This document shows positions 48,178-54,849 of a DNA stretch of 64,000 nt, piece after piece; within the stretch, counting starts at the first letter, position 1, and the number at the start of each line of letters is the position of its first letter. Where the stretch lies: NCBI GenBank assembly GCA_958295515.1, contig CATQGW010000005.1, positions 124,001 to 188,000 on the forward strand. The letters are read 5' to 3'. A model generated the notes under the pieces. The model was not told where the DNA came from. It saw only the letters and a program-made list of their open reading frames with translations, and did not search any database. The stretch is from an uncultured Dehalococcoidia bacterium (GTDB taxonomy: Bacteria; Chloroflexota; Dehalococcoidia; Bin125). The translations under genes were made by a program, and so were the position numbers.

Positions 48178-49341
48178 ATGGAACGCGCATATCTGGACCA
48201 CGCCGCAACGACGCCGCTCGACCCGCGAGTGCTGGAGGCAATGCTGCCGGCGCTGCGCGACGGCTGGGGCAATCCCTCCGGGGTCTACCGCGAGGCGCAG
48301 GCGGCGCACGCGCTGTTGGATGAGGCGCGCGACAGCATCGCGGCGACGCTGGAATGCGCGGCGCGCGAGATCATCCTCACCTCCGGCGGCACGGAGTCGG
48401 ACAATCTGGCGATCCGCGGGGTCGCGCAGGCGCGGGCGCACGCGGGGCGGCACCTGATCACCTCGGCGATCGAGCATCACGCGGTGCTGCATCCGATGGA
48501 GGCGCTGGAAGCCGAGGGCTTCGAGCTGACCGTGCTGCCGGTGGACGGCGAGGGCTTTGTCGATCCGTCCGAAGTCGCGGCGGCGGTGCGGGAGGACACG
48601 ATTCTGGTCTCGGTGATGGCGGCGAACAACGAGATCGGCACGGTGCAGCCGATCGCGGAGATCGCGCGGGCGGTCAAGGAGCGCAATCCGCGCACCGTGA
48701 TGCACAGCGACGCGGTGCAGGCGGCGGGCGCGATCGACGTGCGGCCCGACGCGCTCGGCGTGGATTTGCTGTCGCTGACGGCGCACAAGATTTACGGGCC
48801 CAAGGGCGTGGGATTGCTCTACCAGCGGCGGCGCACGCCGCTCGAGCCGCTGCTGCTGGGCGGCGGGCAGGAGGAGGAGCGCCGCGCGGGGACGGAGAAT
48901 GTGGCCTCGGCTGTCGGTCTGGCGACGGCGCTGCGGCTGGCCTGCGAGGAGCAGGCGGCGCGCACGGCGCACGCGCGCGGGCTGCGCGACGCGCTCTGGC
49001 GCGAGCTGCGCGAGCGCGTGCATCCGCTGCGGCTCAACGGTCCGGCCGATTTCGAGCGGCGGCTGCCCAACAATCTGCACGTCTGCTTCCCCGGCGTGGA
49101 GGGCGAGAGCATCCTCTTGCAGCTGGATATGGAGGGCGTGGCGGCGAGCAGCGGTTCGGCATGCTCGACGGGCAGCACGGAGCCGTCGCACGTGCTCTCG
49201 GCGCTGGGAGTGGACGCGGATACGGCGCACTCGGCGCTGCGGCTGAGCGTGGGGCAGAGCAATACGGAGGCGCAGGTCGAGCAGGCGGCGGCGGCAATCC
49301 CGCAGATCATCGAGCGTCTGCGCGCGCTGGCGCCGGTGTGA
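48178..49341 (+). CDS. Cysteine desulfurase (NifS/IscS family)
   Basis: AYLDHAATTPLDPRVLEAMLP, SGGTESDNLAIRG, LTAHKIYGPKGVGLLY, SSGSACSTGS. Confidence 0.95.
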   Translation: MERAYLDHAATTPLDPRVLEAMLPALRDGWGNPSGVYREAQAAHALLDEARDSIAATLECAAREIILTSGGTESDNLAIRGVAQARAHAGRHLITSAIEHHAVLHPMEALEAEGFELTVLPVDGEGFVDPSEVAAAVREDTILVSVMAANNEIGTVQPIAEIARAVKERNPRTVMHSDAVQAAGAIDVRPDALGVDLLSLTAHKIYGPKGVGLLYQRRRTPLEPLLLGGGQEEERRAGTENVASAVGLATALRLACEEQAARTAHARGLRDALWRELRERVHPLRLNGPADFERRLPNNLHVCFPGVEGESILLQLDMEGVAASSGSACSTGSTEPSHVLSALGVDADTAHSALRLSVGQSNTEAQVEQAAAAIPQIIERLRALAPV

Positions 49342-49952
49342 CCGCTGCGCTCGAGCTTCCGCTTGACCTCCCGCCCGCACCGATCCCGCTGCGCTTGCCC
49401 GGCGATTGGGAGATCACCGACGACCTGCTGCTACAGCTCAGCTCGCTCAACGAGGTCTGGTTTTTCGAGGCCGACGCGAGCGGCGCACTGCTGATTGCGC
49501 CCGGCTCGACGCTGCGCGGCAGCACCCGCGGCGTCGAGTTCATCGCCCAGCTCGTGCTGTGGTCCGACACCGGTATCGGCGGCGCGGTGCTCGGCGGACG
49601 CGGACTCCTGCGACTGCCCGACGGCAGCCGGCGAATCCCTCGTGTGGCCTGGATCAGCGAGGAGCGCCTCACGCAAATCCCGCTCGAAGACGCCGAGCGC
49701 GTCTGGCCGGTCGTGCCTGACTTCGTCGTCGAAATCCGCCCCTACCACGGGCAGATTGACTACCTGCACGAGAAAATGTCCGTCTGGATGGCGACTGGGG
49801 CGCGGTTGGGCTGGCTGCTTGATCCGTTCAAGGAGCAGGTGCATATCTACCGCGCGGATGCGGAGGTCGAGGTGCTGGAGCGTCCGTCGGAGTTGAGGGA
49901 TGAGGGGGTGCTGCCGGGGCTGAGTGTGGATCTGGAGCGGGTTTGGGGGTAG
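49338..49952 (+). CDS. Uma2 family PD-(D/E)XK-like endonuclease
   Basis: GTG start overlapping the desulfurase stop; VPDFVVEIRPYHGQIDYLHEKMSVWMATGARLGWLLDPFKEQVHIYR. Confidence 0.85.
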   Translation: MTAALELPLDLPPAPIPLRLPGDWEITDDLLLQLSSLNEVWFFEADASGALLIAPGSTLRGSTRGVEFIAQLVLWSDTGIGGAVLGGRGLLRLPDGSRRIPRVAWISEERLTQIPLEDAERVWPVVPDFVVEIRPYHGQIDYLHEKMSVWMATGARLGWLLDPFKEQVHIYRADAEVEVLERPSELRDEGVLPGLSVDLERVWG

Positions 49953-50012
49953 GTGTGCCGGTGGTGGTTCACCCCTTGATCTGTTGCAAATCGCGGCGAG
50001 ATACAGACACGC

Positions 50013-50351
50013 CTATTCCGTCGGATCAGACACGTACGCGACGTCGGCAGCGGCGGGACCCACCGGGCTGTTGGCGGACAGCATGGTCTCGAGCGTCACT
50101 CCGAGGGCGGTATCTCGCCTGACCAAGCTGAGAAGCTGAGCGTAGGCGATCACCCAGAGAACGTACTCACCAGGCACCTGCGCCGCGATCGTCGCGTCGG
50201 GCTCCCAGTCGCCACCGTCCGGCACACCGTGCAACTCGTCCAGCTGGGCGCGGCAAGCCGCCAAGGCCATCACTACGCGCCTGGCGTCCGGCATGGCTGC
50301 CGCTGCCGGGCCGCGTGCCATTTCGATGAAATCCATCACGTCTTCGGTCAT
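50013..50351 (-). CDS. Small acidic protein of unknown function
   Basis: 112 aa ORF in the lower-GC island. Confidence 0.5.
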   Translation of the reverse strand: MTEDVMDFIEMARGPAAAAMPDARRVVMALAACRAQLDELHGVPDGGDWEPDATIAAQVPGEYVLWVIAYAQLLSLVRRDTALGVTLETMLSANSPVGPAAADVAYVSDPTE

Positions 50352-50463
50352 GTTGGCCTCCAGTCATTTGGGCGGCGCCGTGTGCGCCACCGCTTGTCTG
50401 CAAGTCATTATGCCTTTCTATGGCACCTACGGCAAACGCGAATAATGTCGCCTAGACTACAGT

Positions 50464-50558
50464 GTGTCCTAGTTGGTACACCACGGAGTATGTGGTGCCG
50501 CTAAAGCAACGTGTCGTTGTGCAGCGGCACGGGCGCCTTGCAGGGTGGGCTAGGACAC
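50464..50558. repeat. Structured palindromic segment bounded by GTGTCCTAG/CTAGGACAC
   Basis: 9-bp perfect outer inverted repeat; inner GGTACACCAC..GTGGTGCC and CAACgtgtcGTTG stems. Confidence 0.55.
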
Positions 50559-51173
50559 CGCGTAACCTATGCCTACCCCAGCACCAGACGCAATCAGACC
50601 TATGAGCAGTTGCCATCCACGGGCCCGCCACTTTGCGTGACTGTCCTCCGCCATAAGCTGAGTGATCTGCTGCTCCGCCAAGTTGATCGAGCTAAAGCGG
50701 CGCACTGTTAGCGTTCGCTGACGGCGTAGAGCTGATCCTGGCTGCACCTGATCAGCCGCAGACGGGCCAGCCGCCCAGCTGGTCGGCACCCATCGCCCAC
50801 ATGTACACAACAGGTCCAGACTGTACGACTCTGTTCGTCCCATGAGGTGGTTCACGATCGTCATATCACGACGCACTACCAAAGACTGCGAATCGCTATC
50901 CGTCCACGGACCAGCAACATCAACGCGGTAATTCTTGCGCTTAAGTCCGAGCCAGATGGGGGCCGACTCGAATAGCCCTTGTGGCTCCAGCACCTCGCGA
51001 CGACAGCCGCAATAACCGCCAAGGCGTCGCCACAGCGGTTGTCCGCGGAGGAATAGCCAAGTGTGGAAATCCCACCTGAGATTGAACCAAGTTTCTCTGG
51101 CTCGATCTCTCGCTCGTTCCTTCCAATTGCTGATTCTCCGTCTGCCTTGCGTTTCCTGCATCTGGTTTCCCAT
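50550..51173 (-). CDS. Protein of unknown function with C-terminal TM segment
   Basis: 207 aa; strong AGGAGG upstream of ATG 51173; WQLLIGLIASGAGVGIGYAVS tail. Confidence 0.65.
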   Translation of the reverse strand: MGNQMQETQGRRRISNWKERARDRARETWFNLRWDFHTWLFLRGQPLWRRLGGYCGCRREVLEPQGLFESAPIWLGLKRKNYRVDVAGPWTDSDSQSLVVRRDMTIVNHLMGRTESYSLDLLCTCGRWVPTSWAAGPSAADQVQPGSALRRQRTLTVRRFSSINLAEQQITQLMAEDSHAKWRARGWQLLIGLIASGAGVGIGYAVS

Positions 51174-51212
51174 GACTATCCTCCTAGCTCAGTGGCATAC
51201 GCGCCAACTAGA

Positions 51213-51218
51213 ATTATA
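51213..51218 (-). promoter_or_regulatory. Candidate -10 box (TATAAT) of the 50550..51173 gene
   Basis: Perfect TATAAT on the minus strand about 40 nt upstream of ATG 51173; no convincing -35 at 16-18 bp. Confidence 0.4.
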
Positions 51219-51259
51219 CAGGGACCAGCGCGATGCCACAGTCAAATGGGCACGTTGGA

Positions 51260-51634
51260 TCACTGATCGATCACCCCGGGTTGCGTCACATCCGCGCGGA
51301 ATTGGCGGATGTCGTACCAGTAGCAGCCGATGCAGGAGCCTCGGTAGACGCCGTTGCCTTTGGTTTGGGCGATGGCGAAGCCTAGCTTGGTGGCGTCGAA
51401 GCGCTGGTTTGTCTCGCGGCACTCGCGGCAATGCTGACGCTTGGCGTTGTTCGCCGCCTTCGAGAGCGGCTGGAAATCGTCGATGGTCAGCTTGGAGGCG
51501 TCGCTGAGGCGCGGGTCATCCCGACGGCCGTCCTTGTGGTCGCACTCCGGGTTCGGCGTGTTGAACGCGGCGCAGCGTTGCGCGGTGATCGCTGCGCGGA
51601 TGTGTTCGGGGACTGTGGCAGTCGGCGTCGTCAT
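51260..51634 (-). CDS. HNH-type nuclease with zinc-ribbon-like cysteine pairs
   Basis: CDHKDGRRDD...NNAKRQHCRECRETNQRFDATKLGFAIAQTKGNGVYRGSCIGCYWYD. Confidence 0.75.
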   Translation of the reverse strand: MTTPTATVPEHIRAAITAQRCAAFNTPNPECDHKDGRRDDPRLSDASKLTIDDFQPLSKAANNAKRQHCRECRETNQRFDATKLGFAIAQTKGNGVYRGSCIGCYWYDIRQFRADVTQPGVIDQ

Positions 51635-51921
51635 CGCTCACGCTCCCTCGCTCGGTCGCTCCGCGCTGCCCAGCGCCCCATCTCGTAGACGGTGCTGTCC
51701 ATCGCCAGATGTGCGCTTGCGGAGAAGCAGATGCGCATCGTCGCGCTGATCACCGCCGCCTCGGCGTCCACGAACTCCGCATCCGACCGATCGAGCGCAT
51801 CGAGCTGCGCCCGTGCAGCCAGATATTCGCGGCAGACATCGTCAATCGGTGGGATCGGCTCCAGCTCGGGATAATTCCAGTCGCCCACGTTCATCAAGGA
51901 GTTCTTCGACTCTGACATCAT
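51631..51921 (-). CDS. Small protein, paralogue of the 51918..52307 product
   Basis: 4-bp overlaps with both neighbours; DWNYPELEPIPPIDDVCREYLAARAQL ... MGRWAARSDRAR. Confidence 0.65.
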   Translation of the reverse strand: MMSESKNSLMNVGDWNYPELEPIPPIDDVCREYLAARAQLDALDRSDAEFVDAEAAVISATMRICFSASAHLAMDSTVYEMGRWAARSDRARERER

Positions 51922-52307
51922 TCAGCCTCCGGAGGCGGCCAGTTGAAGGCTGGGTGGTACCCGGCGCTTGAGAGCCGAGCTACCTCGTGGGCGACAGCCC
52001 GGCCCATCGCCATCGGCGTGAGGTCCGCCGCCAACTCTGCCGCCGCCGCGACTGCGAGATTGGCGATGCACTCCCTCACTCGCCGATCGCCCTCCGGCAT
52101 CCGCGGATCGCCGACCAGCAAATCGTCGCTGAACTCCGCGGCCGTCAAGAACTCGCGGCACGCCTGAGACAGGGGGACTGCCTGTCGGACCGCCGGGTAC
52201 CAATCTCTCGGATCGATGGATTCGTAGGGCGGGGAGGTGGAGTCGTCAGCCAATGGTCTGTCCGATCGGGACGGCGCGGTTGTCGCGCCGCCTGCACAGG
52301 ATATCAT
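51918..52307 (-). CDS. Small protein, paralogue of the 51631..51921 product
   Basis: DWYPAVRQAVPLSQACREFLTAAEF ... MGRAVAHEVARL. Confidence 0.65.
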   Translation of the reverse strand: MISCAGGATTAPSRSDRPLADDSTSPPYESIDPRDWYPAVRQAVPLSQACREFLTAAEFSDDLLVGDPRMPEGDRRVRECIANLAVAAAAELAADLTPMAMGRAVAHEVARLSSAGYHPAFNWPPPEAE

Positions 52308-52412
52308 GCATATGTTCTACTCAACGCGATGACGCCACCCAAAAGCCGCCCTTTGGCAAGGGGAGGCACCGCGCAGTCGTGGCGAGGCTTCGCGGCGCTC
52401 AGAGCCGAACGG

Positions 52413-52835
52413 CTACTCCAAATCGAGGTCCACGAGCTTGACCCAGTTCTCGTCCCGCCACTCCTCTGGTCCGCTCGCCGCCCTTGCGAGAATCACGCTG
52501 GCAGCGAGCGACGGCGAGTGAAACAGGTAGTCGGTCTCGAACACGTAGATAGCGCCGCGTCGTACGAGCGTGCCGTCCTCGATCAGCGAGTCGCGCAAAT
52601 CCCGCGCGCCCCGATCTTCGGGACGCCCGAACGCCGGCGCAGTCTCCGCGAACGCCTCTGACCCGCGAAGCACAAGAAACTCCGGTGCCAGATAGAAGCC
52701 CTTAGCCGTCACGATGACATCCGTCCCCTGCCGCCCGGAGCGGATCTGCAGCCGGACCAGCGGGTATCCCAGCTCACCAGACGGCGGCAGCCTTCTGAAT
52801 TTGATGTCCACGATTCGCTCCAATTTCCACGCCAT
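52413..52835 (-). CDS. DUF4357-like domain protein
   Basis: VTAKGFYLAPEFLVLRGSEAFAETAPAF...RDSLIEDGTLVRRGAIYVFETDYLFHSPSLAASVILARAASGPEEWRDENWVKL. Confidence 0.75.
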   Translation of the reverse strand: MAWKLERIVDIKFRRLPPSGELGYPLVRLQIRSGRQGTDVIVTAKGFYLAPEFLVLRGSEAFAETAPAFGRPEDRGARDLRDSLIEDGTLVRRGAIYVFETDYLFHSPSLAASVILARAASGPEEWRDENWVKLVDLDLE

Positions 52836-52956
52836 GCGAGGGCGCGCGCAGAGAGTACATGCGCGCGGCCTGACTGTCGCTGATGAGGGCGGGGCGCGGG
52901 TGGGACGGGATTGGCGGGGGCGCTGCTAGACTGAGCGGCGACGGGAAGGGGAGCGC

Positions 52957-53661
52957 GTGGTTCAGCGAACGATTGACACTGGCGGGGCGCCGATTCCGCT
53001 GCTGGAGCCGATCACCGATGTCGAGGACGAGCTGCGCTCGCAGCTGCTCGTCTCCACGGTGGACAAGGTGTTCGGCTGGGCGCGGCGCTCCTCGCTCTGG
53101 CCGGCGATGTTCGGGCTGGCCTGCTGCGCGATTGAGATGATCGCGACGGCCAACGCGCGCTACGACCTGGCGCGCTTCGGCGCGGAGGTCTTCCGCGCTT
53201 CGCCGCGCCAGGCGGACTTGATGATCGTGGCGGGCACGGTGACCTGGAAGATGGCCCCGCCGGTGCGCCGCATCTACCTGCAGATGGCGGAGCCGAAGTG
53301 GGTGATCTCGATGGGTTCGTGCTCGAACATCGGCGGGCCGTTCGCGCACGGCTACTCGACGCTGCCGGGCGTGAACAACGTGGTGCCGGTGGATGTCTAC
53401 GTGCCGGGCTGCCCACCGCGCCCGGAGTCGCTGCTGGCGGGGCTAATGCTGCTCCAGCAGGTGATCGAGGAGGAGCACGCGAACGGGCACCGCAAGCGGC
53501 GTCCGGAGCCGAGCGGCGATTTCTCGAAGATGCTGCCGGAGGGGGATCCGATTCGGGCGGAGCTGGAGTCGCTCTTCCCGCCCTATCTCTCCGCCGACGG
53601 GCAGCCGCGGCACCGCAGCGGGGCGCTGACGCACGACGAGAATTTCTTTTCGAGCCGCTAG
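52957..53661 (+). CDS. nuoB: NADH-quinone oxidoreductase subunit B
   Basis: [69 protein letters not shown]. Confidence 0.95.
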
Positions 53662-54170: not shown

Positions 54171-54255
54171 AGGGCTGCGCCCCGCCCCGTCATTCCCGCG
54201 CTCCCTTTTTCGCCATACCGGTGCTCCCTCTTTCGCCATACCCGTGCTCCTTTTT

Positions 54256-54586
54256 CGTCATACCCGTGCTTGCCACGGGTATCTCGCCGTGACCTGCACC
54301 AACCCCTGCGCGCACCTCCCCCGCCATTCCCGCGCTCCCTTCTTCGTCATACCCGTGCTTGCCACGGGTATCTCGCTGTGACCTGCACCAGCCCCTGCGC
54401 CCCCCTCCGCCGCCATTCCCGCGCTCTCTTTTTCGTCATTCCCGCGCTCCTCTTTCGTCATACCCGTGCTTGCCACGGGTATCTCGCCGTGACCTGCACT
54501 AGCCCTCGCGCGCACCTCCCCCGCCATTCCCGCGCTCCTTTCTTCGTCATACCCGTGCTTGCCACGGGTATCTCGCCGTGACCTGC
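54256..54586. repeat. Four plus-oriented type A hairpins (GTCATACCCGTGCTTGCCACGGGTATCTCGCYGTGACC)
   Basis: Copies near 54256, 54345, 54457 and 54546. Confidence 0.9.
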
Positions 54587-54608
54587 ACCAGCCTTCGCGC
54601 ACCTACTC

Positions 54609-54692
54609 CGTCATTCCCGCGAAAGCGGGAATCTCGTCGCGGGGCTTTGGAGGTTGCGCGGGGGAGATTCCCGCGTTCGCGGGAATGACGGA
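54609..54692. repeat. Type C paired hairpin; an inverted type A copy follows at about 54804-54836
   Basis: ATTCCCGCGAAAGCGGGAAT ... GATTCCCGCGTTCGCGGGAATGAC. Confidence 0.9.
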
Positions 54693-54849
54693 AAAGGGGG
54701 CGCGGGTATGACGGGGGTGGGGGCGCAGGTATGACGGAAGTGGGGGCGCAGGTATGGCGAAAAGGGGGCGCAGGAGGCCGCACGCTGCCTTGGTAGTGCT
54801 CACCGCGAGATACCCGTGGCAAGCACGGGTATGACGAAAAGGGGGAAGG

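Follow-up and report, generated by a model that had tools for sequence, protein, structure and literature searches.

Three short, overlapping genes in a 64,000-nucleotide stretch of DNA from an uncultured Dehalococcoidia bacterium (the window) raise the question of what a small HNH nuclease may do when it is encoded behind two small paralogous proteins and is accompanied by no methyltransferase gene. A preliminary description of this DNA regarded the trio as a possible defense, toxin-immunity, or restriction-like module and could name no described system with this layout. This still holds for PADLOC 2.0, which has no model for the trio: the first two products (P0001 and P0002) have no match and the third (P0003) matches only at E of at least 0.01. 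The label "restriction-like" is borne out by the membership of P0003 in the NlaIII/IceA family and by the restriction-modification (R-M) interval in which the genes lie, whereas the results lend no support to a conserved new module. The trio is neither a catalogued system nor a demonstrated new one, but a pared-down form of a known type of restriction enzyme within an operon of unusual makeup.

Operon organization

The trio is known from one genome and consists of three minus-strand ORFs in the order P0001, P0002, and P0003, whose previously reported positions (52307-51918, 51921-51631, and 51634-51260) and 4-bp overlaps proved exact. P0001 (51918..52307) encodes 129 aa, or approximately 111 aa if translation begins at a TTG at 52253, a possible start because the first ~19 codons score worst. 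P0002 (51631..51921) encodes 96 aa and P0003 (51260..51634) encodes 124 aa. Both junctions are ATGA overlaps of 4 bp on the minus strand (51918..51921 and 51631..51634), and good Shine-Dalgarno (SD) sequences precede P0002 (GGAGG) and P0003 (GGGAG). Codon usage is host-like in P0002 (+0.28 bits per codon) and P0003 (+0.31), with all their remaining frames negative; the coding signal of P0001 is weaker (-0.07 bits per codon) but is still the highest of its six frames. Because 4-bp overlaps are frequent in this GC-rich window, where 28 pairs of ORFs of at least 90 aa show them and many are spurious, the overlaps alone constitute weak operon evidence, and the case for an operon is made by overlaps, SD sites, and codon usage taken together. 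Two successive ATGA junctions, each downstream gene having its own SD sequence, suggest that the three genes are co-translated.

The products also differ in charge, P0001 and P0002 being acidic (both pI 4.6) and P0003 basic (pI 8.6). An acidic gene that precedes and overlaps a basic one is the layout of type II toxin-antitoxin systems, and toxin-antitoxin and nuclease-immunity operons in general share the arrangement of acidic small proteins first, a 4-bp overlap, and a basic nuclease last. The trio differs from them in having two paralogous partners that match no antitoxin or immunity family and whose inhibition of the nuclease is putative. R-M operons with a controller (C) gene likewise contain a small ORF overlapping the endonuclease gene; unlike these, the trio has no cognate methylase, and neither P0001 nor P0002 has a helix-turn-helix (HTH) match above the cut-off.

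Catalytic domain of P0003

P0003 matches the Pfam family ICEA (PF05315; E=1.1e-22, 81 bits against a cut-off of 24) at profile positions 110-200 of 218 only, compared with positions 4-200 for a full-length relative. By homology, it is the C-terminal catalytic half (a beta-beta-alpha-metal HNH domain with a 4-Cys zinc site) of an NlaIII/IceA-type restriction endonuclease. An oddity that the preliminary description could not have revealed is that P0003 comprises no more than the catalytic part of such an enzyme and has no cognate methylase. Its identity to the closest full-length enzymes is 58-65%; no relative of P0003 was found in the PDB.

HNH and beta-beta-alpha-metal endonucleases, of which ColE9 is an example, cleave DNA with a histidine general base and one divalent metal (PMC2816704), and HpyAV has been modelled on ColE9 and mutated (PMC2816704). 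P0003 keeps all 27 columns that are invariant in an alignment of 11 members, including D32, H33, N62, K65, R66, and the cysteines C69, C72, C101, and C104. The HNH-type residues recognized earlier are present, but the third "H" (KRQHC) is not a conserved active-site residue, since relatives have H, Y, or F at this position (H68). The two CxxC pairs (CREC and CIGC) are present as described, with all four cysteines invariant. The frame is open, with no stop or frameshift. At columns invariant in other intact close relatives, P0003 deviates in 4 of 43, and an intact same-family enzyme fares no better (5 of 48), which indicates that the domain is not visibly decaying.

Relatives of the nuclease and their methylases

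NlaIII and IceA1 (PF05315) are type II restriction endonucleases specific for CATG and adjoin their methylases, M.NlaIII and M.HpyI. In Helicobacter pylori, IceA1 functions as an isoschizomer of NlaIII (PMC2816704), and iceA lies next to hpyIM, a methylase gene, an arrangement shared with the NlaIII R-M system (PMC13340068). P0003 shares their HNH and 4-Cys catalytic domain; it differs in lacking their N-terminal ~85 aa, in belonging to a genome without a cognate methylase, and in being preceded by two orphan paralogues.

A scan of 85,462 genomes yielded 25 relatives of P0003, IMG/VR yielded two with a single sequence as query and 40 with a profile, and one came from the same taxonomic family. 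Intact relatives measure ~190-320 aa and, in every case inspected, carry an additional N-terminal domain in which an NGGxWxRxDG-like motif is conserved; 2 of 25 viral copies fail the strict motif test yet keep a full-length N-terminal region. Among the intact relatives inspected (genomes and 25 viral loci), none is a shortened nuclease accompanied by these partners. The family occurs widely without P0001 and P0002, which by the criterion given in the preliminary description speaks against a conserved module. NlaIII-type endonuclease genes are also found on viral contigs of up to 358 kb, many with a methylase alongside (L104-L142, IMG/VR).

Of 27 loci, 20 have a methylase of the DPPY or SPPY type no more than ~2.6 kb away, in 11 of them directly upstream on the same strand, and the neighboring methylases sampled with Pfam are of the N6_N4_Mtase or D12 class. 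Degradation of the endonuclease gene is common in the family: 6 of the 27 genes are disrupted by a frameshift, stop, or deletion (L004, L006, L023, L025, L026, and L027), and most H. pylori iceA1 alleles are frameshifted (PMC13340068). An open methylase gene still adjoins three of the disrupted copies (L004, L006, and L026). Broken relatives usually retain recognizable pieces of the N-terminal domain (L004, L006, L023, L025, and L026); L025 is a short copy of 126 aa with an internal deletion.

Absence of the N-terminal domain and the methylase

P0003 begins at the domain boundary: the N-terminal domain of the family (profile positions 1-109, with the NGGxWxRxDG motif) is absent, and the start codon and SD sequence lie exactly at this boundary, overlapping the stop of P0002. 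A tblastn search of 49.9-53.0 kb with two N-domains and two methylases found no significant remnant of either. An apparent upstream extension of P0003 with 49% identity crosses a stop and is attributable to chance. P0001 and P0002 were also considered as pieces of the lost domain, to which they have no sequence similarity.

That no methyltransferase is visible in the window was correctly noted before, and the absence of the cognate type extends to the whole genome. No cognate adenine methylase adjoins P0003 and no full-length match occurs in the genome, which is 94% complete; the methylase query matched other methylases solely in the C-terminal motif region that they have in common. A second ICEA gene was not found in this genome either. 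A literature search retrieved no publication on orphan HNH endonucleases without a methyltransferase. CATG avoidance was considered as a trace of past restriction and is uninformative: the window contains 149 sites against 164 expected (observed/expected 0.91), which is not a clear depletion.

The small paralogues P0001 and P0002

P0001 and P0002 are paralogues, as had been proposed from their shared motifs. BLASTP aligns them with 33% identity over 70 aa (E=8e-8), and their Smith-Waterman score of 93 was reached by none of 5000 shuffles (mean 28.6, sd 5.1, maximum 64). Identity by codon position is 47/49/36% for positions 1/2/3; since third positions are less alike and identical residues often have different codons, the likeness resides at the protein level and is old. 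AlphaFold2 models computed from the two sequences only predict helical proteins, with core helices at 46-62, 70-92, and 98-114 in P0001 (mean pLDDT 70) and helices at 26-41 and 50-95 in P0002 (mean pLDDT 83).

The expectation that the small proteins would be conserved was not realized, as no homologue was detected beyond the host genome. The profile searches covered ~1000 genomes, the full genome collection having been scanned with the nuclease only as query, and gave no convincing homologue in 394 genomes of the class, 399 of the phylum, 247 of another class, or 9 genomes with nuclease relatives, nor in IMG/VR, phages, or plasmids. Weak matches (E 0.002-0.08) are partial and lie mostly within much longer frames. 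The neighborhood sought in other genomes was likewise seen only once. Confined to a single genome, with no second trio and no further copy of P0001 or P0002, the locus offers no comparative evidence for function.

Family libraries assign neither protein to an antitoxin, immunity, or DNA-binding family, the best match being RsmI_C at E=0.028. The structure search that had been recommended, run against the PDB, gave no fold match for either model at E of 0.001 or below, and the P0002 model had none among the viral folds of BFVD at the same threshold. The models thus provide no tie to an inhibitor or DNA-binding family.

The iscS-nuoB interval

The trio lies between iscS (48178-49341) and nuoB (52957-53661), which are both conserved among relatives from the same family. 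The intervening segment (49341..52957 in the window) spans ~2.5 to 7 kb in related genomes with both ends seen, and its cargo varies among them (L091-L101): one carries a Type III R-M pair (L093), another a DNA methylase whose tail is Mrr-like (L096; partial in L092), and others tandem Uma2 genes, a SAM-methyltransferase, and an AlkZ-like protein. Judged by this gene content, the interval is a variable-cargo spot and R-M hotspot in the family. The trio genes themselves were never found there in the related genomes with both ends seen.

Several neighboring features accompany the trio. P0005 (52413..52835, minus strand, 140 aa), a DUF4357 protein, matches just the C-terminal third of the profiles for PDC-S14, a candidate phage-defense family in PADLOC, and for DUF3780, and may be a short form or a fragment. 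Downstream of the trio, a 207-aa ORF (50550-51173) has no family match; its product is very basic (pI 10.6) and ends in a hydrophobic C-terminus, and its codon usage is unlike that of the host. Just past nuoB/nuoI, tandem short repeats (CGTCATACCCGTGCTCC-like units) occupy 54188-54822, where ORFs on both strands repeat "MPRVSRRDLHQP".

Functional interpretation

The reading favored here, to which we give nearly an even chance, is that the trio comprises an NlaIII-type nuclease devoid of its recognition half and, coupled to it in translation, two acidic partners, all in an R-M hotspot. As the sequence shows, P0003 has become separated from its N-terminal half and from the adenine methylase, and it now stands as the last gene behind the two acidic helical paralogues. 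Its most likely role would be that of a small DNA nuclease reliant on P0001 and P0002 for its activity. Without the N-terminal half, it should lack site specificity of its own and would not recognize CATG alone, which could explain how the cell survives without a methylase; the missing methylase means that some other safeguard would be needed. Coupled translation would produce P0001 and P0002 ahead of P0003, and they may bind the basic nuclease, either holding it inactive in an antitoxin- or immunity-like manner or bringing it to a target, possibly in defense. A tentative and rather doubtful proposal is that, in a nuclease derived from NlaIII and working without a methylase, two separate paralogous helical proteins have taken the place of the lost recognition half and inhibit or target the enzyme.

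The main competitor, a serious possibility though short of an even chance, is a young, decaying remnant: an NlaIII-type R-M system would have inserted, a deletion would have taken the methylase and the endonuclease N-half, and the harmless C-terminal fragment, translated but inert, would have been joined to an unrelated two-gene operon. Such a history accords with the joint absence of N-domain and methylase, and it is favored by the restriction of the trio to a single genome, by the frequent decay in the NlaIII/IceA family, where the 126-aa L025 and the frameshifted iceA1 alleles provide precedents (PMC13340068), and by the partial neighboring defense gene, P0005 resembling a C-terminal piece as well. 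The single-genome occurrence, the decay in the family, the partial P0005, the weak coding signal of P0001, and the lack of fold matches for the small proteins speak against function. However, a recent deletion should leave scraps of N-domain or methylase, and none was found nearby; nor does P0003 show a stop, a frameshift, an altered invariant residue, or an excess of substitutions. Function is favored by a domain that is intact, evolves normally, and possesses a start codon and SD sequence of its own exactly at the domain boundary, and the acidic partners beside a basic nuclease, the old protein-level paralogy, and the presence of R-M cargo at the same interval point in the same direction. 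Function and remnant are nearly equal in probability, with function ranked slightly higher.

Two other explanations appear far less probable. P0001 and P0002 could be recognition subunits that replace the N-domain of a split, multi-subunit, methylase-free restriction enzyme discriminating foreign DNA in some other way; they occupy the place of the N-domain, are translationally coupled to the nuclease, and could heterodimerize as a pair. Their strongly acidic character, their lack of similarity to the N-domain or to any DNA-binding family, and their structure models without matches make this improbable. Lower still is the probability that P0001 and P0002 form a small operon of their own and that P0003 merely lies behind it. 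The abundance of 4-bp ORF overlaps in the window and the lack of any link between the small proteins and NlaIII-type nucleases elsewhere would fit such a coincidence, but two successive ATGA junctions with SD sequences before both downstream genes suggest co-translation and speak against it.

Restriction endonucleases ordinarily rely on both a recognition domain and a methylase. The P0003 operon, which lacks both yet retains an intact set of active-site residues, may represent R-M decay caught mid-course or the re-use of such a nuclease with proteins as its control, and as three short genes of ~1 kb in all, it could easily be tested in the laboratory. If the reading of P0003 as an NlaIII-derived nuclease controlled by its partners is true, the operon would reveal a new way in which a restriction enzyme can be re-used as a partner-controlled nuclease.
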